This document shows positions 16,245 to 28,022 of a stretch of DNA of 52,142 nucleotides, in pieces (the first letter of the stretch is position 1; every line of letters starts with the position of its first letter). The translations under genes were made by a program, and so were the position numbers. The notes under the pieces are model-generated. The model had not been told where the DNA came from and ran no database searches. It saw only the letters and a list, made by a program, of their open reading frames with translations. Origin of the DNA: Robiginitomaculum sp. (GTDB taxonomy: Bacteria > Pseudomonadota > Alphaproteobacteria > Caulobacterales > Maricaulaceae); assembly GCA_016763315.1 (NCBI GenBank), contig JAESTZ010000099.1, forward strand, positions 1 through 52,142, read 5' to 3'.

Positions 16245-19200
16245 TTATTTACCGAGCTCTGTGGGATCGGCCGGAGCGGTTTTCAGATCCAAAGGTTGAT
16301 AGGTTTTTAACTGGTTCAGAACCTCTTCTAGGCCGCGTTCTAATTGCATATCTCTGCCTTGATTATAGGCCGCAGGGTCAAGCTCTACCCGAATATCCGG
16401 TGCCACACCTTCGTTTTCTATGGTCCAATTGCCATCGGGATCAAAGAAGCGAAAATACGGTACGGTCAAAAACCCACCGTCAATAAGACGCGGGTTGGCA
16501 GAAATGCCAATCAAGCCGCCCCAGGTACGGGTGCCGATGAGTTTGCCGATCCCTGTATGACGAAAGGCGTAGGGCATATAATCGCCACCCGAACCGGCAT
16601 CTTGGTCAATCAACATGACTTTTGGTCCATAAACTGCACCACCCGGCGTGTTAAAAACTTTACCGGCTCGGTCTTTCCAGCCCGACAGATAAACCCGGCG
16701 CAACACGTCAATAATGTAGTTTGCGGCTTGGCCGCCGCCATTGGCACGCTCGTCAAAGATCATCGCTTCGCGATCACTTTGAGCAAACATCATGCGGTTG
16801 AAATAAGTAAACCCTCCACCGGCTGTATTGGGCAGATAGACATAACCCACCTTGCCACCAGATTGCTCATCTATCCATTTACGATTGCCTTCAACCCATG
16901 CCCAATGGCGCAATTCCCGTTCGGACGCGGTGGGTTTAACAATAATATCACGGGCATCTGCGTCCGCGCCTGTGGTGCTGATGCGCAAGCTGAGCTGGGT
17001 ATTTGCACGACCTTCCAACATGGCGAAAATATTATCTTTGCCCGTAAGGACGCGACCATTTAGCGCCAAGATGTAATCACCTTCCTTAACCCCAAGTCCC
17101 GGAGCGGCCAATGGTGCCATCAGAAACGGGTTCCAGCTTTCGCCCGTGAATATTTTCTTGATCCGGTAGCGGTCGTTTTCAACTCGCAAATCAGCACCCA
17201 AGAGGCCGGTATTTGTGCGCCGTTCATTATGTATGTCGCCGCCGCCAGTGCGGTTATGGCCGACCTGCATTTCCGCGATCATTTCCACCAACAGTCTAGT
17301 CAGGTCTTCGCGGCGACCAACATGTGAAAGCAATGGCTTATAGCGATCACGTACCGCCTGCCAATCAAGGCCGTGCATATTGGTGGCATAGAAAAAGTCA
17401 CGCTCCATGCGCCAAACTTCTTCGAATATTTGCTCCCATTCATGACGCGGATCAATGAACGCCCGCAGATCGCCAAGCTTAAGAGGTTCCGGCTTTAATT
17501 CCTCGCCGGTTTCGGCAGTGACAATTGCGTTATCAATCTTTTGAATGATTAAATGCTTACCATCGGCACTCATGGAATAGGACCCAATTTCACTGGCCAG
17601 CGTTTTAGATTTTAGTTCCTTAAAGTCAAAGCGCTTCAGCTTGTTTGCGACCTGTGGGTTGCTCCCTCGTGGTTCATTGGTGATGCCTGGTTGGGTACGC
17701 TCAACATAATAAAGCGCGCCTTTTTCAGAGACGTTCAGCGTGTCATAATTTCGCTCCGGCAGGGGCAAAGCAACAATGCGATCACCCACTCCGTCAAGAT
17801 CGATTTTGGTGACAATTTTTTCTTCCTCATCATCTTTGCCGTTGTTATTTTTGTTCTTATCTTTCTTTTTTTCTTCCTCATCACCAGTTTTAGGCAAAAG
17901 CGGCGATGTATCTTCGGCACTCAACACCAAAGCATAAATTCCGGCGCGATAGGGACGTTCCTGAGAAGACATATCAAGCCCGACTTGCGCTGGGCCAGAA
18001 TTGGTTGATGCAGTAAAGTACAGCGTTTTACCGTCAGGGCTAAATGTCGGCGAGCCGGTATCACTCATGCCATCAGAGACCTTGGTGGATTGACCACTGC
18101 TGAAACTATACACCATCAAATCCGCTAGAAAATTTGGCTGCTCCAAAGTATATGCAAGCCAAGTACCATCCGGCGATAGCGCCGTACCAAAACCGGCACG
18201 GCGAGTGTTGGTGGCAATTTTGACCCGCGATCCATTGCTGATCTTAATCGCATACAGGTTCAAATGGTTATCCTGATAGATAATATGCTCTCCCGCGCCG
18301 CCCCAATTCAGAAGCGTATAAAAGGCTTTGGCGTTCTTTGAGCCAAGAGCCAGCTTGCGCGAGGTTTTTTCGCCGCGCTGGTCGCGAATAACTAGGCTGT
18401 ATACGCCATTTTTGTCATCAATATAGGCAATGGTGTCACCGTCCGGTGACCATAAGGCATCAAATTCGCGCACCCCGTCCGTACCGGTAAGATTACGTGT
18501 GGAGCCATCTTCGAGAGGCACAGTGAAAACCTCACCGCGCGCCGTAAGTACCGCACGTTTGGCACTTGGCGAAAGACCAATGCGCTCTACTTGTTTGCTT
18601 AAGTTTTTCCACTTGGGTCGTAATTGTTCCAGATCAGGGCGGATTGATATGCTGATCTCGCTGACAGTGCCTGCGGTCGTATCCAACTGCTTTAGCCGGC
18701 CACCGGCTTCAAATACAATATTGCTGCCGTGAGCGCCGGCCCAGCGCACATCCCACGGGCCTTCATCTGTGTGTTGAGTGATGACCTTGGTTGCCTGGTC
18801 ATAGCTAAACAGGTTCAGTGATTGGTTATCCCGATCGGAAATAAACCAGACCTGTCCATTCACCCACATCGGATTTAGATCATTGACGCGATCACCCGGT
18901 ATATACTCCAAAGTCTGGTTTACCGGAGTCAAAATATTGATCGACGGTGATGCCCCGCCGCGATATTGCCGCCACCCTGACGAGCCACCATAAAGTCCGT
19001 TATATGCCGGAGCGTTCGGCGTATAGGCTAGCTTTTCCCCGTCCGGCGACCAGCTGCCGTTAAAGAAGCGAGCCTCCATCTGCTTGGTAGGTAAACCACC
19101 AGTTAGCTGGACATGATAGATCTGCCCAGATCGTCCGAACTTAGTTTCTCTGTTTGACGAAAATGTCACTGCCATTCCATCCGGTGTCCATCCTGTGACC

Positions 19201-19553
19201 CGATCCCGGCTCGGATGGAAGGTCAGGCGCTTTGGCTGGCCGCCTGCAACCGACATCACATAGACATCATCATTACCATCAAAACTTGCCGTGAAAGCCA
19301 GCATTTTCCCGTCTGGCGAGAATTTAACATTGCCTTCATTCGCCGGGTGCGATGTTAAACGGCGCGGATTGCTTCCATCGGGTTTCGCAATCCAGATATC
19401 ACCAGCATAGACAAAGGCAATGTGCCTAGCCGATAGATCCGGCTGCCCGAGCATAAAGGTTTGTTCTTGTGCGGTTACAGGAGCAACCATAAGCGTGCCG
19501 CCAATGGCAAAACCGGCAATCGTAGATAATATTTTATGCTTGATTATGGTCAT
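16245..19553 (-). CDS. tricorn-like S41 family peptidase
   Basis: The 1102-residue exported protein (signal peptide ending PVTAQ) has the tricorn architecture: two WD40-like propellers (about 35-320 and 335-650, repeated FSPDGK.L.FTA), a Lys/Asp/Glu-rich insertion near 565-590, a C1 helical domain, a PDZ domain (about 780-850, LGVKEGDYILALNGR) and a C-terminal S41 protease core. Catalytic residues are visible: the His in MQVGHNRTGGGD near 770, nucleophile Ser988 in DAGSGGDYMPY and a Glu in NEGVAPDI near 1048. Tricorn proteases degrade peptides from larger proteases; this version is probably periplasmic. The gene stands alone, with a long spacer upstream. Confidence 0.93.
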   Translation of the reverse strand: MTIIKHKILSTIAGFAIGGTLMVAPVTAQEQTFMLGQPDLSARHIAFVYAGDIWIAKPDGSNPRRLTSHPANEGNVKFSPDGKMLAFTASFDGNDDVYVMSVAGGQPKRLTFHPSRDRVTGWTPDGMAVTFSSNRETKFGRSGQIYHVQLTGGLPTKQMEARFFNGSWSPDGEKLAYTPNAPAYNGLYGGSSGWRQYRGGASPSINILTPVNQTLEYIPGDRVNDLNPMWVNGQVWFISDRDNQSLNLFSYDQATKVITQHTDEGPWDVRWAGAHGSNIVFEAGGRLKQLDTTAGTVSEISISIRPDLEQLRPKWKNLSKQVERIGLSPSAKRAVLTARGEVFTVPLEDGSTRNLTGTDGVREFDALWSPDGDTIAYIDDKNGVYSLVIRDQRGEKTSRKLALGSKNAKAFYTLLNWGGAGEHIIYQDNHLNLYAIKISNGSRVKIATNTRRAGFGTALSPDGTWLAYTLEQPNFLADLMVYSFSSGQSTKVSDGMSDTGSPTFSPDGKTLYFTASTNSGPAQVGLDMSSQERPYRAGIYALVLSAEDTSPLLPKTGDEEEKKKDKNKNNNGKDDEEEKIVTKIDLDGVGDRIVALPLPERNYDTLNVSEKGALYYVERTQPGITNEPRGSNPQVANKLKRFDFKELKSKTLASEIGSYSMSADGKHLIIQKIDNAIVTAETGEELKPEPLKLGDLRAFIDPRHEWEQIFEEVWRMERDFFYATNMHGLDWQAVRDRYKPLLSHVGRREDLTRLLVEMIAEMQVGHNRTGGGDIHNERRTNTGLLGADLRVENDRYRIKKIFTGESWNPFLMAPLAAPGLGVKEGDYILALNGRVLTGKDNIFAMLEGRANTQLSLRISTTGADADARDIIVKPTASERELRHWAWVEGNRKWIDEQSGGKVGYVYLPNTAGGGFTYFNRMMFAQSDREAMIFDERANGGGQAANYIIDVLRRVYLSGWKDRAGKVFNTPGGAVYGPKVMLIDQDAGSGGDYMPYAFRHTGIGKLIGTRTWGGLIGISANPRLIDGGFLTVPYFRFFDPDGNWTIENEGVAPDIRVELDPAAYNQGRDMQLERGLEEVLNQLKTYQPLDLKTAPADPTELGK

Positions 19554-20515
19554 AACAGTTTCCCTTTTTTGGTGTTTTACACGTTGGAGCTGGCATTGTC
19601 ACGTTAGCTTCAGAAAGCGGCAGGTTTTGAACCAGAAGTATTCAAACTGAACCTGGGGTTTTGTCATTCGAGTATGGTACGAAATTGAGGATTGTCGCTC
19701 AAGCCCATTTTAATCTAACACAGAATTTTGAACAGTCTCCAGAATTACGGTAATGGGCTTTGTCAAGTTAACGCGGCAGGTTGAGCTTAGTTCTGTTGTT
19801 TCTTTCTAGGCGTACGCTGATGACGTTACAATATCCCATTGGTTTTGGGCTTGACGTCTGAAGTTTCGAAGTCAGACCGTGAGATGAGATGGCGTCTGAA
19901 GTTGAATAAGGTGTAGATTTGACTGTGGGCTTATAACAATCTTTATGTAGCTTTTATAGATCGAAACTTCTGTGCTTTTCGTTCTCTTCGTAAACTGGAA
20001 CGACAAACCATTGGAGCGCCCTCTTAATTCACCACTTGAAACGACAAAGCCGGAAACCTCCAAGAAGATAAGGCAAAAACTTTGCAAGGATGGTGAAACA
20101 CAATTTTGTTTACCATAGCATGAAAATTTAATTGTAACCGTAACTATAAAAGCAATCTTTGACGGCACTGTAACTTATATAACTGACGGCTCTTTCCCTG
20201 AAGAACTGGTGAAAGATTTACCGCTTTCATGGGCTGAGCAACGGATATATCTCGGATACTCTCACCCATGACTTACCAAACAAGCGGATACGCTATTGGC
20301 GCAAAGAGACGCTTGCCTGAAATCGGCCAACAATCGCCACATCTTCGTCGCGGGCCTATGTCTTTTCTTCATGTTTGACCGGACAAAATCGGGACAAGTG
20401 TAACAACGGTGCCCTGAGGGTTTTGAAAATTGTCAAAGCAGTATACTTTTTATCCCTTTATAAGGTATCAAATATTAAGGTGGGTGTTTCATAGATAAAT
20501 TCAGGGCAAGTTGGT
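19554..20515. other. long intergenic region upstream of the glycan operon
   Basis: This 960 bp region carries no credible complete gene. Short frames exist on both strands but have no ribosome site or family resemblance. Its main feature is the left direct repeat at 20208-20328, whose first part reads as the 3' end of a lost gene (…LPLSWAEQRIYLGYSHP, stop at 20269-20271). The operon promoter presumably lies in the AT-rich 20420-20500 stretch, where I see TTGAAA and TATACT with a poor spacing of 13. Confidence 0.4.
20208..20328 (+). repeat. left direct repeat flanking the glycan operon
   Basis: About 120 bp match 27707-27826 with only scattered differences; both contain CTTTCATGGGCTGAGCAACG and AAGCGGATACGCTATTGGCG. 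Both copies keep the same reading frame and stop (LPLSWAEQRIYLG-SH-, TGA). The similarity continues about 57 bp past the stop, so the repeat is not just a coding remnant. The two copies bracket the seven-gene operon. Confidence 0.75.
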
Positions 20516-22417
20516 GTGGTTGAAAAAATTAGTTTAAAACAATGGAGGTTGCGGGACCTTGGCAAGGCTGGCTTGTTATTGTTGTTAATATTTCTGGTAG
20601 TTAGGTATCAAATTAAGCTCTTGGGGTTTGGTGAATGGGGTGATGAATCCGAGACCATCGTCGCCGCAAAGATGATTGTTTCTGGACAGTCGCTTTATCG
20701 TGAGATTTTCAATCATCACGGACCTCTTACATTTTTACCTGGAGTTGTCCTTGAGTTGTTTGGAAGCTTTGGTGTTACGGGACACCGTGTTTCTATCGCG
20801 TTTCTTCAAATTCTGGCTCTTGTTTCACTGTATTACTCGCCGCTGTTAAAAGGCTCGCTTATAAGGATAGTTTATACAGTTGGTGCAGCGACTATTATGC
20901 TGGTGTATTTGCCTGACAATTTTGGTCATATGTATAAATACCAAGTACTGGCTGGCTTGTTTTTAGTAGTTGTGTTGTCCCAATATACTCTGCCGGCCAT
21001 TTTGGATCCGGTACCCATACCCTTTGGACGGCAAATTATTGGAAACTTGTTGCTTTCATGCATTGTTTTTTTCTCTATTTCATATTTACCGGTCGTTTTG
21101 TTATTGTTTTTTGCCAGCTTACAAAAAAATAAAATTAGAATCGTGACTATTATCTTCGTGACTGGCGGCTTGCTCAATCTAATATTCTTAATATTAATTG
21201 GTTCGGTGGCCGGATATTTGGCTTTTCATTTATACCTGAACTTTACGATTTTGCCTAAGTTTACTGGCACGGAAAATCTATGGGTGCTGATAGGGATCGC
21301 TTTTAGTACTGCAACAAAAAATCTTGCGTACTTTACTTATTTGCTAATTGGACTTGCCGCGATTCTAAAGTTAGCTAGTTTTGAGAGCAATATCCCTTGG
21401 CGGTCGTCCTTAGTGGCATTAGCTTTGGGCAGTCTTTTAATCCGAGGACCTGAGTACCACGCATTACCCTATTTGTACGCCCTAACGTCTCTTCCTTTGG
21501 TGTTTTTGTACGGCAAAAAAGTGATCCAGACTAAATGGGTTCCTGCGGCTCTTAGTTTCTTGCTTGTTTGTTTTATAAAACTGTCGTTGTTGATTCCAGC
21601 GGATGCTCAAAAATTAATGAGCGGCAAACGGTTTGAAAAAACGGAATTCGGACAGTTGGCAAAATTCTTAACTGACGAGAATGATCTAATAATCGCCTAC
21701 TCGTTCCGAAGTTTTAGTTATATTGCGGCAAACCGACTGCCAGCTTCTGGCAATTATTTTTATTTGCCTTGGCAAGAAGAGTATAAAAATAATCCAGTGT
21801 TAGGAATTGAAATTGACGCTTGTAAGGATATTAAATCCTATCGACCGAAATTGATGGCACTTGATAAGTGGAAAGTGCTGGATCGCTATTCTTGGGCTTC
21901 TTATGGTACCTGTATTCAAGATTTTGCGGATCAGAACTATACTCAGTTCCCTGCTCGACCATATTACATTCGAAATGATTTAGCTCCTGAGTTTTTGGGG
22001 CTGGATGCTGATGGCTTACCTAAAACCTTACGTCCCAGTGTTGGGTTAACTCCAAAAAACTCTATCCAAATACTCTTTACCCCCAAACACCTAAAATCCA
22101 ATAACCAGTTAACCAAAATTGGGATTATGTTTGCTACTTACCTTAAAACCAATCAGGGTGAAGCAGAGCTACAATTAATTAACAAGGACGGGTCAACATC
22201 CAAGATAAAATTTTCCTTGCCCGCACTTGTTGACAATGGTTATTTCTATTTTGATGTGAAAAATGGACAATATACCACAGGCCAAATTATCTCTCTTTCT
22301 GGCGAAGGAATTAGTACTTGGGAGAGCGCTGGGAAAGCAGGGGGCGCAACAACTTGCGTGATGTACCAATATCAAGACGGCACACTGAAGCATACACCTG
22401 GTTGCACGATTCCTTAA
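20516..22417 (+). CDS. GT-C type membrane glycosyltransferase
   Basis: This multi-pass membrane protein (633 residues, about ten hydrophobic segments in the first 360) has an early external loop EWGDESETIVAA and YREIFNHHGPLTFLPG. This is the acidic Asp-Glu signature of GT-C transferases that use polyprenyl-phosphate sugars (ArnT/GT39-like). The soluble C-terminal half (about 370-633) is probably periplasmic. In gtr systems the GT-C member puts the sugar onto the surface polymer. It starts at GTG with AGGG upstream and leads an operon of seven genes. The specific sugar and acceptor are unknown. Confidence 0.75.
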   Translation: MVEKISLKQWRLRDLGKAGLLLLLIFLVVRYQIKLLGFGEWGDESETIVAAKMIVSGQSLYREIFNHHGPLTFLPGVVLELFGSFGVTGHRVSIAFLQILALVSLYYSPLLKGSLIRIVYTVGAATIMLVYLPDNFGHMYKYQVLAGLFLVVVLSQYTLPAILDPVPIPFGRQIIGNLLLSCIVFFSISYLPVVLLLFFASLQKNKIRIVTIIFVTGGLLNLIFLILIGSVAGYLAFHLYLNFTILPKFTGTENLWVLIGIAFSTATKNLAYFTYLLIGLAAILKLASFESNIPWRSSLVALALGSLLIRGPEYHALPYLYALTSLPLVFLYGKKVIQTKWVPAALSFLLVCFIKLSLLIPADAQKLMSGKRFEKTEFGQLAKFLTDENDLIIAYSFRSFSYIAANRLPASGNYFYLPWQEEYKNNPVLGIEIDACKDIKSYRPKLMALDKWKVLDRYSWASYGTCIQDFADQNYTQFPARPYYIRNDLAPEFLGLDADGLPKTLRPSVGLTPKNSIQILFTPKHLKSNNQLTKIGIMFATYLKTNQGEAELQLINKDGSTSKIKFSLPALVDNGYFYFDVKNGQYTTGQIISLSGEGISTWESAGKAGGATTCVMYQYQDGTLKHTPGCTIP

Positions 22418-22441
22418 CGCACTGATTACTGGAAGGCAAAT

Positions 22442-23407
22442 ATGTCTAAAATAGGAGAAAAAGGGTTAATAGGCTCAACTGGGTTTGTAGGTAAGAACTT
22501 ATCTCAACAAATTGATTTTTCGCAACATTATCATTCTAAAAACATTAATGAGATACGTGGCCGATCTTTTGATTTGCTGGTATGTGCAGGTGCTCCAGCA
22601 ACAATGTGGGCAGCAAATAAATCGCCTGAAAAAGATGCAAAAAATCTACGAAATTTGTCTGCAGCCATACAATCAACAAACACCAAAAAGCTGGTGCTTA
22701 TCTCAACTATGGCAGTGTTTAGTGACGTTTCATCTGGGCCAACAGAAAGTTCTACCGAATATGAAACCAAACAAGCTTATGGTTCCAATCGCCGGGAATT
22801 AGAGCTTTTAGCGGCTGAAAGTTGCGAGCAATTGTTGATTGTTCGGCTTCCTGCTTTGTTTGGCTCAGGCCTTAAAAAGAACTTTATATTTGACTTGTTA
22901 AATCCAATTCCTTCCTTTCTAAAACCGGATGTTTTTTCTAACTTGAAGTTAAGCCTTCTAACATCTGAGCGTGCGGTTCTCTCTCGACTGTATCTCTTTG
23001 ATGATAAAACCCAAATGTGGCAATTTGATCGATTGGCTGCCAAGAGTGATCCTAGTTATAACTGTTTATCAGCCGCTTTTCGAGGCGCCGGTATGTTGGC
23101 TCGTGAATTTACCCATAGCGACAGCCAGTTCCAATATTATAATATTGATAACTTGTCTGCGGATATTATTGATTGTCTTAGAGTTGGACTTGACACTATA
23201 AACATCTGTTCTGAGCCATTACGAGCCACTGATGTGCACCAAGCATTAATTGGTAATACTTACAGGAACGTCGAACCTAAAAAAACTATCGAGAACATGC
23301 AAACCGAACACGCCATTGCTCTTGGTAAGTCAGGCTCATTTTTGTACTCACAACAAGAAACACTTTTAGACCTGAAAGCATTCTTTGATCGAGAGCTAAT
23401 AACATGA
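22442..23407 (+). CDS. NAD(P)-dependent epimerase/dehydratase (extended SDR-like)
   Basis: The 321-residue protein begins with the Rossmann motif GLIGSTGFVGKNL. It has a LVLISTMAVFSD strand carrying a Ser-Thr pair and TKQAYGSNRRELELL, where the usual YxxxK pair becomes YxxxR. The nucleotide-sugar SDR fold is therefore likely, but the replaced lysine makes activity uncertain. It lies 24 nt after the GT-C gene and overlaps the next gene by 4 nt. A role in converting the transferred sugar is inferred from context. Confidence 0.75.
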   Translation: MSKIGEKGLIGSTGFVGKNLSQQIDFSQHYHSKNINEIRGRSFDLLVCAGAPATMWAANKSPEKDAKNLRNLSAAIQSTNTKKLVLISTMAVFSDVSSGPTESSTEYETKQAYGSNRRELELLAAESCEQLLIVRLPALFGSGLKKNFIFDLLNPIPSFLKPDVFSNLKLSLLTSERAVLSRLYLFDDKTQMWQFDRLAAKSDPSYNCLSAAFRGAGMLAREFTHSDSQFQYYNIDNLSADIIDCLRVGLDTINICSEPLRATDVHQALIGNTYRNVEPKKTIENMQTEHAIALGKSGSFLYSQQETLLDLKAFFDRELIT

Positions 23408-24237
23408 AATTAGCGATCAGCAATATTGCCTGGCCTTTTGAGCAGTTTGAACAAGCTTTGCAAATAATGAGCCTGCACAATGTTAAGGGATTAGAAATCG
23501 CCCCGGGTTTAATTTTCCCAAATGAGGCTGATCCTTTTTCACCATCAGATCAGGCACAAAGGGATGTGCAGAGCAAGTTATCTGACTTTGGCATCACGAT
23601 GGTCTCTATGCAATCTTTGTTATATGGGGCTTCTGGCGCTGAAGTCTTTGGTGGTCATGCCGCGCGAAAACAGTTTCAATTGGGCATGGAGCGAGCAATT
23701 ACCCTATCAGGCCGCCTTGGTATTCCTAATTTAGTATTTGGTTCGCCAAAGGCTAGGGTTATTCCTGATAACATGCCACAAACTCAGGCATTGGAAATTG
23801 CTGTAGACGTTATGTCAAGTTTAGGGGATTTTGCCAAAGCAGTGAATACTAAAATCGCAATTGAACCATGTCCAAAAGAATATGGAACCAACTTCTTAAA
23901 CACTACAAAACAGGCGATAGAGTTCTGCGATGCTGTAAATCATCCAGCAATCACTCTAAATTTTGATCTTGGCGCACTAATAATGAACGATGAATTACAA
24001 CATTATGAAAACGCCCCACCTCAAGGCCTACACCATATTTCACACATCCATATTAGCGAACCATACCTAGGCCCGGCTCCTCAGGATTGGCGGCGTTTAC
24101 GTAAGATTACCCAAGAGATCAAAAATCTCGGCTACCAAGACTGGATATCAATCGAAATGTTGGGTAAAAAAGGTTCAGAATTGGATCAGGTGGATATATC
24201 TTTGCGGAATGCTATAAAGTCTCTAAAGGGAAGCTAA
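23404..24237 (+). CDS. sugar phosphate isomerase/epimerase (AP-endonuclease 2 fold)
   Basis: The 277-residue TIM barrel resembles the xylose isomerase-like family: LAISNIAWPFEQFEQAL, KGLEIAPGLIF, IAIEPCPKEYG with a metal-ligand Glu, ITLNFDLGALIM with an Asp, HISHIHISEPYL with a His cluster, and WISIEML with a final Glu. These are the expected metal-binding positions. It starts with an ATGA overlap. It probably isomerises or epimerises a sugar for the operon product, but the substrate cannot be read from sequence. Confidence 0.82.
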   Translation: MKLAISNIAWPFEQFEQALQIMSLHNVKGLEIAPGLIFPNEADPFSPSDQAQRDVQSKLSDFGITMVSMQSLLYGASGAEVFGGHAARKQFQLGMERAITLSGRLGIPNLVFGSPKARVIPDNMPQTQALEIAVDVMSSLGDFAKAVNTKIAIEPCPKEYGTNFLNTTKQAIEFCDAVNHPAITLNFDLGALIMNDELQHYENAPPQGLHHISHIHISEPYLGPAPQDWRRLRKITQEIKNLGYQDWISIEMLGKKGSELDQVDISLRNAIKSLKGS

Positions 24238-24238
24238 C

Positions 24239-25234
24239 ATGAAATCACAAGTTGAACCCTTAATAGAGGATTTTTTAGTATCTATCTGTTTCGTAGGTGA
24301 GTTTTCTTTGAAAAAAGAATTACAGATCATTCACAAAATTTCACAACAATTAGAAACCCGCTTTCAGTATTGGGAAATATTATTTGTCGTCCCGGAAGCT
24401 ATAAGTAAGAAATTAGAAAAGTCGGCTGATATTATACGCACAATACGGAATTTCAGAATTCTTCTTGTTAATAATGATATTGGTTATTATCAGCGACGTA
24501 TGATCGGAGCCACAGAGGCTTTGGGTGATGTAACCATTATTACTTCTATAAATGAAGTTGAGCAGACTGACATTTGTGCTTTGGCGGAAAAAACTTTTTC
24601 CAGCAACAAAATAATCATCGGCAAACGGAAAAAACGCTTTTTTGAATTTGGCCTAATATACCCATTATTGCGAGCAATATCATCCAACGATGTAAGTCGA
24701 TCGTACTTGAAAACCATCGCTTTGCCTCGAAGCACCTTAAACCAAGTGTTGACTCGCTCCAGCGCAGCACTGGATTTGCGGTATCCACCCAAAAATACAT
24801 CTCAGACATATAGCACATTAGTTTTTTCTCCACTAAAGGATAAACGCAAATCAGCATTTTTGGAACGATATCGTTTGTCTGTGGAACTGGTAATGAATGC
24901 CACAGATAAATTTTTGCGGGCATATGCAGGTTTCGCAGCATTAGTGATGTTTTCGGCATTATTCTACGGTTTCTATGCAGCTGTAATACAGATATTGGGG
25001 AACCCTAAAGAGGGTTGGTTCTCGATGGCCGCAGTCCAATCAGGAACCGTTTTCTTTATAGCGTGCGGAATGATGATTCTTAGTCATAGCATGCGGCGAT
25101 TGATCAAAAATACCGACCAACCCGAGGCATATGTTTTGGTTGGCGAAATATCAAGTTTGGATTTTTTTCAAAATGCTAATGCCTTTAATGTCGTACACAC
25201 GGCGCAAAACAGCGAAATTGCAGATGGAAAATGA
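24239..25234 (+). CDS. GtrB-like membrane GT2 protein, apparently lacking the catalytic DxD
   Basis: The 331-residue protein resembles polyprenyl-phosphate glycosyltransferases in layout. It has an N-terminal GT-A-like domain (about 10-225) ending in two transmembrane segments (AGFAALVMFSALFYGFYAAVI and VFFIACGMMILSHSM). It keeps the RRMIGATEALGDV helix that precedes the metal site in GT2 enzymes, but the following strand reads TIITSINEVEQTDI, with no DADLQ or DxD. It may be a degenerate or diverged partner of the next GT2 enzyme. The assignment is by architecture and context. Confidence 0.6.
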   Translation: MKSQVEPLIEDFLVSICFVGEFSLKKELQIIHKISQQLETRFQYWEILFVVPEAISKKLEKSADIIRTIRNFRILLVNNDIGYYQRRMIGATEALGDVTIITSINEVEQTDICALAEKTFSSNKIIIGKRKKRFFEFGLIYPLLRAISSNDVSRSYLKTIALPRSTLNQVLTRSSAALDLRYPPKNTSQTYSTLVFSPLKDKRKSAFLERYRLSVELVMNATDKFLRAYAGFAALVMFSALFYGFYAAVIQILGNPKEGWFSMAAVQSGTVFFIACGMMILSHSMRRLIKNTDQPEAYVLVGEISSLDFFQNANAFNVVHTAQNSEIADGK

Positions 25235-26084
25235 AGCAAAGCCTGATTTGCTGCGATTAGCAGAAAACTGGTCGATTCCCTCCTTCACCGAAACAATTTT
25301 TTTTCCTCCACGAAAGCCATATTTTGTCGTTATCCCTGTAATTAATGAAGGGGAGAGAATTCAAAACCAACTTCGCAAAATGCACAATGCTGGCGTATCA
25401 AAATTAGCTGATATTATATTAATCGATGGTGGCTCGACTGATGGTTCTTTGGAGACGAGCTTCTTGCAAAAGGTAGGCGTTTGCGCATTACTGACCAAGA
25501 CTGGTGAGGGGAAATTATCTGCCCAGCTTCGATGCGCATATGCATGGGCTTTGCAACACCAAGCACAAGGAATAGTAACCATTGATGGCAATGACAAGGA
25601 TGGGGTTGGACAAATAGCCACATTTATTTCGAAATTGTCTACAGGTTCCGGATACTTGCAATCATCGAGGTTTATCAAAGGCGGGGAGGCGAAAAACACA
25701 CCGCTTTTGCGGCTCCTAGCTATCCGGTTGTTTCACGCACCCTTACAGTCACTCGCAGCATGGGTTTGGTTAACTGATACCACTCAAGGCTTTCGGGGCT
25801 ATTCATCTGCATTTTTGCTCGACCCCGGAACACAACCCTTTCGAGATATTTTTAAGAAATATGAGTTGTTGGCTTATCTTACTGTGCGCGCCAGTCAACT
25901 TGGCTACCAAGTAGAGGAAATACCAACCTCGCGTATTTACCCTAAACATGAAAAAACCCCTACTAAAATTACGGGTATCATGCCTTTAGTTGATTTAGCG
26001 TTGATTGTAGTCAAAGTCTTATTTCGAGTTTATCATCCTAAAAAGCTACCGAGACTCCAAGATAAGACAGACCTGAAACCATGA
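25224..26084 (+). CDS. family 2 glycosyltransferase
   Basis: This GT-A fold transferase is of the DPM/GtrB type. It shows YFVVIPVINEGERIQNQL, IILIDGGSTDGS, and TIDGNDKDG in place of the usual DADLQDPPE; a hydrophobic stretch near residue 155-180 may bind the membrane. The frame opens at 25131 inside the previous gene, but the ATG at 25224 (MENEAKPDLL) overlaps it by only 11 nt and fits the family, giving 286 residues. Together with the preceding protein it probably loads the sugar on a polyprenyl carrier; this is inferred. Confidence 0.8.
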   Translation: MENEAKPDLLRLAENWSIPSFTETIFFPPRKPYFVVIPVINEGERIQNQLRKMHNAGVSKLADIILIDGGSTDGSLETSFLQKVGVCALLTKTGEGKLSAQLRCAYAWALQHQAQGIVTIDGNDKDGVGQIATFISKLSTGSGYLQSSRFIKGGEAKNTPLLRLLAIRLFHAPLQSLAAWVWLTDTTQGFRGYSSAFLLDPGTQPFRDIFKKYELLAYLTVRASQLGYQVEEIPTSRIYPKHEKTPTKITGIMPLVDLALIVVKVLFRVYHPKKLPRLQDKTDLKP

Positions 26085-27220
26085 ACGAGGACTATGACAT
26101 TGCGATCATTGGTGGCGGGTTTTATGGTTGTTGTCTTGCTCAATTTTTAAGCAGCATTTCCCTCAAAACTTGTATTGTTGAGGCTGGTTCAAGCTTGATG
26201 AACCGCGCGTCTAGGGTTAACCAAGCCCGTGTTCATACTGGTTTTCATTATCCTAGAAGCTTTGTAACTGCTCTGCGGTCATTGTCGCTACATCAACGAT
26301 TTACCGAAGATTTCTCAAAAGCAATTATATCTGACTTTGAGATGCTTTACGCGATTCCAAGTCGAGGATCAAAAGTTACGTCCAAACGTTTCTTTCGCAC
26401 ATTTAGCCAGATGGGAGCACCGATTGAACCGGCTAGTCAAAGTCAAAAGAGTTTGTTTGATACCTCCATGATCGACGACGTATTCAAATGCCGTGAATAC
26501 GCTTTTAACTGGCAATTGCTTCTTGAAATAATGCGAGATAATCTTGAAAATAGTAAGGTAAAAATATTGTTGGGCGAAACCGTAGAGAAGTTAAGCCGCT
26601 CAGACAAACAAGTGTGTTTGGAGCTACAAAGTGGTAAACTGCTGCGAGCAAATACTGTATTTAATATGACATATGCCAATATCAATCATTTATTGAAATC
26701 AAGCGGGATCAAGCCAGTCGCATTAAAGCATGAATTGACGGAAATAGCTTTAATTAAGCCTCCAGAAGAATTGCAAAATCTAGCGGTTACTGTGATGGAC
26801 GGGTTTTTTTTTTCAAGCCTTCCATACCCTCCGACAAAACTCCATTCATTTACTCATGTAAGATACACACCTTACAAAAGCTGGGTTGATGCAGCCAATG
26901 GGTCATCTCCGTATGAGGTCCTAAATCAACACCGCCAAACGACTAGCTGGCGGCACATGTTGCTTGATGCCAAAAGGTATCTTCCTTGTTTGCACCGCGC
27001 GCAATATCAGCAATCCATGTTTGAGGTAAAAACAGTACTAATACAAAATGAACACGATGATGGCCGCCCGATATTGTTTTGTGAGCATTCAGATTTTCCA
27101 AATCTTTTCAGCGTTCTAGGGTCGAAAATTGATAATATATATGATTTATTTCAGGCTGTGAGCCAGGCACGTCCTCAATGGAAAGATGCCGAATTTAATT
27201 TGCCCGTTGGTAGAGATTGA
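26081..27220 (+). CDS. FAD-dependent oxidoreductase (DAO-like)
   Basis: The 379-residue protein begins YDIAIIGGGFYGCCLAQFL, a typical dinucleotide-binding GxGxxG, followed by TCIVEAGSSL with the ribose-binding Glu. The motif RASRVNQARVHTGFHYPRS is like the flavin-binding region of D-amino-acid-oxidase-type enzymes. It starts with an ATGA overlap. A flavoenzyme within a gtr-like operon is unusual; it may oxidise or reduce the sugar or a lipid-linked intermediate. No substrate can be named. Confidence 0.75.
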   Translation: MNEDYDIAIIGGGFYGCCLAQFLSSISLKTCIVEAGSSLMNRASRVNQARVHTGFHYPRSFVTALRSLSLHQRFTEDFSKAIISDFEMLYAIPSRGSKVTSKRFFRTFSQMGAPIEPASQSQKSLFDTSMIDDVFKCREYAFNWQLLLEIMRDNLENSKVKILLGETVEKLSRSDKQVCLELQSGKLLRANTVFNMTYANINHLLKSSGIKPVALKHELTEIALIKPPEELQNLAVTVMDGFFFSSLPYPPTKLHSFTHVRYTPYKSWVDAANGSSPYEVLNQHRQTTSWRHMLLDAKRYLPCLHRAQYQQSMFEVKTVLIQNEHDDGRPILFCEHSDFPNLFSVLGSKIDNIYDLFQAVSQARPQWKDAEFNLPVGRD

Positions 27221-27227
27221 AACGGTC

Positions 27228-27668
27228 ATGAAGCAAATTCTTAAAAAGCTATTTTATTATAACAAGGTTCGGTATTTTTTTGTAATTTTACTTGGGTTTT
27301 GTCTTGATTTCTCCATTGCATTGTTCATGCGGTGGATGTTTGATATGCCCTTGATTACTTCGACCAGTATTGGGTTTTTAGCCGCGTTGGTTTTGAATTA
27401 TTTTTTGTTTGAGACTTGGGTTTATCAAAACTCTCGCAAAAGTTTATCCATAAAGCGTTTTTTGCTGACCTCACTGGCTGCATTGCTTACTTTGTTGGTA
27501 AGATGGGTCGTTTTGCTGACATTAGCCTTTCTGCTAAGCTATGGCCTATTATGGGACGCTCTTATGTTATTGGTAGCGGCTTTTACGTCCATGGTATTAA
27601 ATTATATAATTATTTCCCGGATTTTCACAAGCGAACCCGCTAATGATATGTCTGACGGCATACAATAG
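27228..27668 (+). CDS. GtrA-like membrane protein
   Basis: The small protein (146 residues from the ATG at 27228; an open frame reaches 27186) has four hydrophobic segments in the GtrA pattern, with FFVILLGFCLDFSIALF, IGFLAALVLNYFLFETWVY and FTSMVLNYIIISRIF. GtrA proteins are thought to flip polyprenyl-phosphate sugars across the inner membrane, though this has been questioned. It closes the operon, 7 nt after the FAD gene. Confidence 0.85.
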   Translation: MKQILKKLFYYNKVRYFFVILLGFCLDFSIALFMRWMFDMPLITSTSIGFLAALVLNYFLFETWVYQNSRKSLSIKRFLLTSLAALLTLLVRWVVLLTLAFLLSYGLLWDALMLLVAAFTSMVLNYIIISRIFTSEPANDMSDGIQ

Positions 27669-27706
27669 ACATAACAAGGCGATTTAACCGGATCACGATT
27701 GCAGCG

Positions 27707-27826
27707 GGTGAACGGTTTACCACTTTCATGGGCTGAGCAACGGATCTACCTTGGATGCTCCCACACATGACTTACCAACCAAGCGGATACGCTATTGGCG
27801 CAGAGAGACGAATGCGGAAATAGGCC
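27707..27826 (+). repeat. right direct repeat flanking the glycan operon
   Basis: This is the second copy of the 20208-20328 repeat, again with an in-frame LPLSWAEQRIYLGCSHT then TGA (27768-27770). It lies 38 nt after the GtrA-like gene and about 120 nt from tRNA-Ala. The repeat pair is consistent with recombination or insertion of the whole block; no integrase or transposase gene is visible. Confidence 0.75.
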
Positions 27827-27946
27827 GATATTCGGTCAGATCCCGCGTCTCTGCGTCTCTTCAGCGGGTCCGAATACCTAGCAAGCCTTTGAAATTGCGC
27901 CACTAAATAGAGAGACGTCAGTGTGCCGTAAAACCGGCAGACTAAA

Positions 27947-28022
<76 letters not shown>

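Follow-up and report, generated by a model that had tools for sequence, protein, structure and literature searches.

A putative mobile sugar-editing glycosylation cassette in Robiginitomaculum sp., the six-gene core of which recurs in many unrelated bacteria

The classical gtr locus consists of only three genes, gtrA, gtrB and gtrX, in which undecaprenyl-phosphate-glucose (undP-Glc) is the donor, GtrB is a two-helix family 2 glycosyltransferase (GT2) with a DxD motif, and a GT-C protein is the transferase. In mycobacteria, the flavin adenine dinucleotide (FAD) enzyme DprE1, which belongs to the VAO/FAD_binding_4 family, and the short-chain dehydrogenase/reductase (SDR) DprE2 are found beside Rv3789, a small flippase candidate, and arabinosyltransferases. 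The three-component pentofuranose systems (Citrobacter O1/O2, GT136) combine a lipid-linked donor, a flippase, an external transferase and an auxiliary epimerase, and in the relevant part of the 2024 paper on them the authors state that they knew of no other epimerase in side-chain systems of O-antigens (PMC11127046). In Escherichia coli, YcjR, which has 3-keto-glucoside epimerase activity, is encoded together with two sugar dehydrogenases as YcjQ-YcjR-YcjS (D-glucoside dehydrogenase, 3-keto-D-glucoside isomerase and 3-keto-D-glucoside dehydrogenase), within a carbohydrate import and metabolism cluster for which the pertinent sections of the source name no glycosyltransferase (PMC11543891). 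Here we describe a block of seven genes at positions 20516-27668 of a 52,142-nt stretch of DNA from Robiginitomaculum sp. (GenBank:JAESTZ010000099.1; the whole stretch is called the window below), which looks like a mobile sugar-editing glycosylation cassette and whose six-gene core is found together in many unrelated bacteria. We consider it probable that the cassette serves lipid-linked glycosylation with a sugar-editing trio of its own and that it was horizontally acquired.

A preliminary description of this DNA had reported a same-strand block of seven open reading frames (ORFs), and the block is real, all seven being on the plus strand. Gene 1 (20516..22417, 633 aa), a putative GT-C transferase with a hydrophobic N-terminal and a hydrophilic C-terminal part, is followed by an RmlD/epimerase-like SDR (22442..23407, 321 aa; PF04321, 3.6e-7; PF01370, 5.1e-7), a putative keto-sugar reductase, and by a triosephosphate isomerase (TIM) barrel sugar epimerase of the tagatose/psicose 3-epimerase kind (23404..24237, 277 aa; PF01261, 1.2e-22). 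Next come gene 4 (24239..25234, 331 aa), a membrane protein with the GtrB fold but without the aligned DxD (pseudo-GtrB), and a GT2 resembling dolichol-phosphate mannose (DPM) synthase (25224..26084, 286 aa; PF00535, 6.5e-4, slightly under the curated cut-off). The last two genes encode an FAD-dependent oxidoreductase of the DAO family (26081..27220, 379 aa; PF01266, 3.4e-10; signature NQARVHTGFHYPRS), a putative sugar oxidase, and a GtrA-like membrane protein (27186..27668, 160 aa; PF04138, 1.5e-10, above the curated cut-off), a putative flippase of the lipid-linked sugar. Pfam gave no match at all for genes 1 and 4, and NCBIfam gave only distant kin for the seven proteins (none for gene 1), every match being below cut-off. 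The earlier claim of three tailoring enzymes within a gtr-like frame is supported, as is the assignment of the GtrA-like protein to its own family. Most starts had also been said to overlap the preceding gene by 4-11 nt; this holds for three of the six junctions (SDR/TIM barrel and GT2/FAD, 4 nt each; gene 4/GT2, 11 nt if the GT2 starts at 25224), whereas the others are gaps of 24 nt and 1 nt and, for GtrA, either a 35-nt overlap (start 27186) or a 7-nt gap (alternative later start 27228). The GT2 open frame begins at 25131 (317 aa), the start at 25224 being the likelier one from the alignment. Promoter-like sites are not enriched in the cassette region (16 versus 18.6 in shuffles) and the 5' fold of the cassette is unremarkable (z -1.07). 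Terminator-like sites at 20150-27950 of the window numbered 13, as compared with 7.4 on average in shuffles (sd 3.0).

Named genomes were scanned with a profile of the FAD protein, and the best 80 of 429 relatives, which are the closest part of the family, were kept; the neighbourhood table omits L001 and L002 (the window's own contig) and L005-L011 (weak FAD matches). A gene was counted as a partner when it lay within 6.5 kb of the FAD gene on either strand, and a locus as well covered when it extended at least 6 kb to the left and at least 5 kb to the right of that gene. Among the 80 loci, partners were the SDR in 74, the TIM barrel in 77, gene 4 in 79, the GT2 in 77 and GtrA in 71, and all five were present in 66, or in 52 of the 56 well-covered loci; the four well-covered exceptions lacked only a separate GtrA, which in two of them is fused to the GT2. 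Co-occurrence of the gene set elsewhere, as had been foreseen, is therefore confirmed, but for a conserved core of six genes and not for seven, gene 1 having no kin in the cassette loci. Control loci without the cassette (n = 14, seven of them only about 3.2 kb long) gave no partner match. Independent counts in 385 genomes of the class, the window's own included, gave eight FAD, four GT2 and eight SDR matches, and without FAD as bait all four GT2 matches and six of the eight SDR matches adjoined an FAD gene (for the SDR, an FAD match at 1e-30), while a seventh SDR match (G391) has a weaker FAD relative with a TIM barrel adjacent. Chance neighbourhood is excluded by these bait-independent counts together with the co-occurrence in the 80 loci.

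Two gene orders are the commonest, with the GT2 either before FAD or after GtrA, and the FAD alignment comprises 93 rows, short rows having been filtered from the family alignments. A tree of the FAD proteins intermixes bacterial families and orders. Its rows outside Proteobacteria (Chloroflexota, Cyanobacteriota, Campylobacterota, Bacteroidota and Thermodesulfobacteriota) are all from metagenome-assembled genomes and may therefore be binning errors; the window row sits on a long end branch (0.97) and has no firm near kin. A tblastn search in which the FAD protein was the query gave 13 plasmid records, nine of which were examined. Cereibacter sphaeroides (L013) is among the carriers of the cassette. 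Six alphaproteobacterial plasmids share the order SDR-TIM-gene4-FAD-GtrA-GT2, an Azospirillum plasmid (L018) lacks GtrA, a Mesorhizobium plasmid (L020) is annotated with GT2-FAD-SDR-TIM, this GT2 being unmatched by the window-family model, and the set of a 10.8-kb Psychrobacter plasmid (L019) includes a small multidrug resistance (SMR) transporter gene but nothing that matched GtrA. On two Rhodobacterales plasmids, exosortase genes (annotated xrtE, xrtD) were noted near the cassette (L012 4105-5715 and L016 11573-13225).

With classical gtr loci the cassette has in common GtrA, the GtrB fold, the logic of a lipid-linked donor, a changing transferase gene and mobility; it differs in that its core comprises six genes, three of them sugar-editing enzymes (FAD, TIM barrel and SDR), in that inspection by eye showed no phage genes next to the cassette of the window, and in its GtrB-like protein. 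Gene 4 had been described as a second GT2-like membrane protein, and it is indeed GtrB-shaped (predicted structure confident, pLDDT 89.8; GtrB matched by profile at 1.3e-14). The aligned DxD, however, is missing in 59 of 61 gene-4 rows, the window protein included, and gene 4 is therefore unlikely to encode a second functional transferase. To say that the DxD is lost in every gene-4 protein would be wrong, for two rows keep it in the aligned position and 4 of 61 have some DxD within the 14-residue stretch.

It is the separate GT2 that probably loads the lipid. Its two best NCBIfam matches, both below cut-off, are AglJ and PpgS (3.8e-7), the latter by name a polyprenyl-phosphate sugar synthase; its profile matches DPM synthase 5mlz in the PDB (3.4e-10) and the GtrB-like phrog_841 (4.9e-9). 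The motif DGN[GDN]KD, which reads DGNDKD in the window protein, was found in 87 of 90 GT2 rows, the other three of which may be unrelated transferases; it aligns with DADLQ of DPM synthase, Asn replacing the second Asp. With a GT-A family match and a catalytic Asp motif, as in polyprenyl-phosphate sugar synthases, the GT2 is probably such an enzyme, judging from its sequence. Compared with the two-helix GtrB, the window GT2 has one borderline hydrophobic segment, and the domains of 83 of its 90 relatives have none. Fusions tie the lipid-carrier parts together: gene 4 and GT2 form one open frame on the Psychrobacter plasmid (L019 5410-7188), GtrA is fused to GT2 in L080 and L083 and, by eye, to a multi-helix domain in L028, and in 19 of 90 loci the GT2 has a C-terminal domain with at least six predicted membrane segments. 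Gene 4 and the GT2 might also be two separate transferases loading different sugars, which would give a disaccharide or two modifications; both have the GT2 fold and a few gene-4 rows retain a DxD, as given above, but with the aligned motif gone from nearly all rows and with the two proteins joined in L019 we regard this as very unlikely.

The FAD oxidase and the SDR are encoded together as in DprE1/DprE2, and a comparable redox epimerisation is what we propose for the cassette, which shares with the mycobacterial set an FAD enzyme and an SDR beside a small flippase candidate and transferases. It differs from that set in having an additional TIM-barrel epimerase, in a donor that is probably GT2-loaded and not derived from phosphoribosyl pyrophosphate (PRPP), and in an FAD enzyme of the DAO family; for the window protein, Pfam listed no FAD_binding_4 match up to an E of 1. 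The nearest solved relative of the FAD protein by sequence is L-alpha-glycerophosphate oxidase 4x9m (1.3e-8), an enzyme that oxidises a secondary alcohol. Two FAD relatives (G159:C10:269832-270947 and G165:C16:23061-24188) contain one in-frame TAA each.

The TIM-barrel profile matched ketose 3-epimerases and related enzymes (from 4.1e-14) as well as the 3-keto-D-glucoside 4-epimerase 6wn6 (2.3e-8), which we take to be E. coli YcjR. Its E154, D188, H216 and E251, identical in 86 of 86 rows, align with the Glu, Asp, His and Glu of ketose 3-epimerase 7cj4, which presumably bind the metal there. YcjR is likewise encoded with two oxidoreductases, although YcjQ and YcjS are dehydrogenases and not FAD oxidases. 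Viral contigs were also scanned, and the best 80 of 163 FAD relatives were kept (24-42% identity). In 32 of these 80 rows the FAD domain begins at least 180 residues into the open frame, and a Gfo/Idh/MocA NAD-binding domain is fused before it in all three that were tested (L137, L140 and L178, picked for their long N-terminal part); these fusions count for oxidation followed by reduction. The kin of the FAD enzyme and of the TIM barrel, the resemblance of the SDR to RmlD reductases, the viral fusions and the YcjR set thus all support a sequence of oxidation, epimerisation and reduction, whatever the carrier of the sugar. Editing of the free sugar is made less likely by the lack of any kinase or nucleotidyltransferase among the listed Pfam and NCBIfam matches of the seven genes.

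We propose that the GT2, which together with the DxD-less gene-4 protein would be kept at the membrane, would put a sugar onto polyprenyl phosphate; that the FAD enzyme would then turn one hydroxyl into a ketone, the TIM-barrel enzyme invert a neighbouring carbon and the SDR reduce the ketone to yield a rare epimer; and that GtrA would flip the polyprenyl-phosphate-linked sugar across the membrane, where gene 1 would move it onto a polymer outside. In its full form the proposal holds that a split synthase (GT2 plus a pseudo-GtrB membrane site) loads a common sugar, that a DAO-type FAD oxidase, a TIM barrel of the ketose-epimerase type and a YxxxR SDR rewrite its stereochemistry on the lipid before the GtrA flip, and that this is an independent, second case of DprE1/E2-type editing, in a mobile cassette with exchangeable transferases. 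This full form is advanced tentatively, being in our estimation possible rather than probable. A lipid-linked donor, a flippase, an external transferase and an auxiliary epimerase would all be shared with the pentofuranose systems (PMC11127046), to which the cassette adds a three-enzyme editing set; their PRPP-using polyprenyl phosphoribose synthase (PPPRS) and MATE flippase were matched by none of the seven proteins in Pfam.

Gene 1, the candidate for the transfer step, is a putative GT-C transferase by virtue of nine predicted hydrophobic segments within its first 355 residues, its place, and the gtr-like neighbours of one relative. Relatives were found in 2 of 189 other genomes of the class (G217 and G230) and in 2 of 397 other genomes of the phylum (G217 and G759). 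The one in G230 lies between a gtrA gene (7.3e-15) and the 3' end of a gene that looks GtrB-like by eye but has no Pfam match, and the C-terminus of this relative carries a ricin-B lectin domain (6.6e-9), similar to the lectin or carbohydrate-binding module tail on the transferase that is mentioned in the account of the pentofuranose systems (PMC11127046). Since gene 1 has no kin in cassette loci and few relatives elsewhere, the transferase of the cassette seems to be exchangeable like that of gtr loci; a simple hydropathy criterion finds a multi-helix protein of at least 380 aa, neighbouring or fused to the GT2, in 57 of 90 loci. A three-row profile of gene 1 found no membrane enzyme in the PDB, and a scan of viral contigs with gene 1 alone led nowhere.

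Several observations weigh against this reading. The GT-C fold of gene 1 is putative, its single-sequence structure model having a pLDDT of 40, the neighbours of its relative in G217 are not gtr-like by eye, and in 33 of 90 loci no multi-helix candidate, separate or GT2-fused, was present in the stretch examined, although one of the 33 (L028) has it fused to GtrA and some reach a contig edge. In G230 and G165 the FAD relative has neither an SDR nor a TIM barrel close by, and in G271 an SDR is the sole match. The SDR has Arg at the position of the usual catalytic Lys, all 84 aligned relatives showing Y-G-x-[NH]-R where YxxxK would be expected, and might therefore not be a normal reductase; the trio could then fail to epimerise, and the sugar would be attached with an altered group still in place, for example in a keto, deoxy or ring-changed form. 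Xylose-isomerase-like barrels are known to perform aldose-ketose isomerisation as well. Nevertheless, the TIM-barrel residues are those of ketose epimerases, and an epimerase between an oxidase and a reductase is the simplest use of the three, so that we consider an altered group unlikely.

The viral loci add to these points. Among the 80, 72 have an FAD relative without any partner, five have FAD, SDR and TIM barrel without GT2, gene 4 or GtrA (L133, L182, L185, L201 and L208, one of them on a 386-kb contig), two have FAD and SDR, and one (L132) has the trio with gene 4 and GT2. By eye, the neighbours in L182 and L208 resemble nucleotide-sugar genes, those in L208 being heptose-activation-like, which favours editing before lipid loading. 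The trio may accordingly edit a nucleoside diphosphate (NDP) sugar in the cytoplasm, after which the GT2 and gene 4 would load it, GtrA flip it and transfer follow; the lipid part would in that case be a conventional gtr system whose donor is unusual. A known pattern of this sort is the editing of heptoses on GDP-sugars. In 52 of the 56 well-covered cellular loci, however, the genes of the trio are mixed in with gene 4 and the GT2 and GtrA genes, an arrangement that was not seen in the viral loci, and DprE1/E2 provide a precedent for redox editing of the FAD type on a lipid-linked sugar, as noted in the relevant part of PMC11127046. We judge this cytoplasmic route somewhat improbable as a whole. 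For the editing step taken by itself, a lipid-linked sugar has about an even chance of being the substrate, a nucleotide sugar a rather smaller one, and any other substrate is improbable.

That the cassette is an insertion follows from its composition and surroundings. Its GC content is 0.407 versus 0.470 in the remaining window, below that of all 301 same-length stretches outside it (0.448-0.515). It is flanked by direct copies of a 109-nt repeat, 88% identical to each other, each of which is itself the 3' end of a recombinase gene: the left one (20208..20316), outside the cassette, stems from a degraded gene of serine-recombinase-like character, and the right one is at 27707..27815. The reading frame of the left copy ends ...LPLSWAEQRIYLGY, both copies translate to a nearly identical protein end, and a similar end was found in the congener G009 (L121 15699-15817) and in a Resolvase+Recombinase protein (L223). 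A tRNA-Ala(GGC) gene lies beside the insertion on the minus strand (27947..28022), and at the cassette-free place in G009 we found one repeat copy, the same tRNA-Ala (L121 15938-16013) and the same next gene (84% identical). No cassette protein was matched across 19 kb of the G009 locus, nor was the window's left neighbour (the 16245-19553 protein) found in that stretch, the left flank being different; G009 is thus a one-sided empty site, in which the right-hand junction only is seen empty. The reading frame in G009 shares 38% identity with the end of a Resolvase/Recombinase protein of a Sphingobium plasmid, so that the cassette sits between remnants of a serine-recombinase gene. The left neighbour, a protein of 1102 aa adjoining the cassette, is by eye similar to tricorn/S41-type proteases.

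In 17 genomes of the same genus, the best match to the FAD protein was 1.3e-5, and a strong homologue was present in only 2 of 60 relatives (G040 and G048). Vertical inheritance in the genus was rejected on the basis of this best match and of the cassette-free right junction in G009. A prophage-borne gtr was likewise rejected, because the frames adjoining the cassette are not phage-like by eye and the viral FAD relatives are distant and, for the most part, partnerless.

By its design the cassette would work like the gtr and DprE1/DprE2 systems, but by the features tested, the DxD of GtrB and the family of the FAD enzyme, it belongs to neither, and its combination of enzymes was not found described in the open-access literature searched. 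The six genes may serve as markers for finding such cassettes, and the DxD-less GtrB renders the idea of a split synthase directly testable. The cassette is also an example of a transferable glycan-diversifying unit. If the three editing enzymes, which are a widespread candidate set, act as proposed, rare sugars would occur in many alphaproteobacterial glycans and would be unpredictable from nucleotide-sugar genes.

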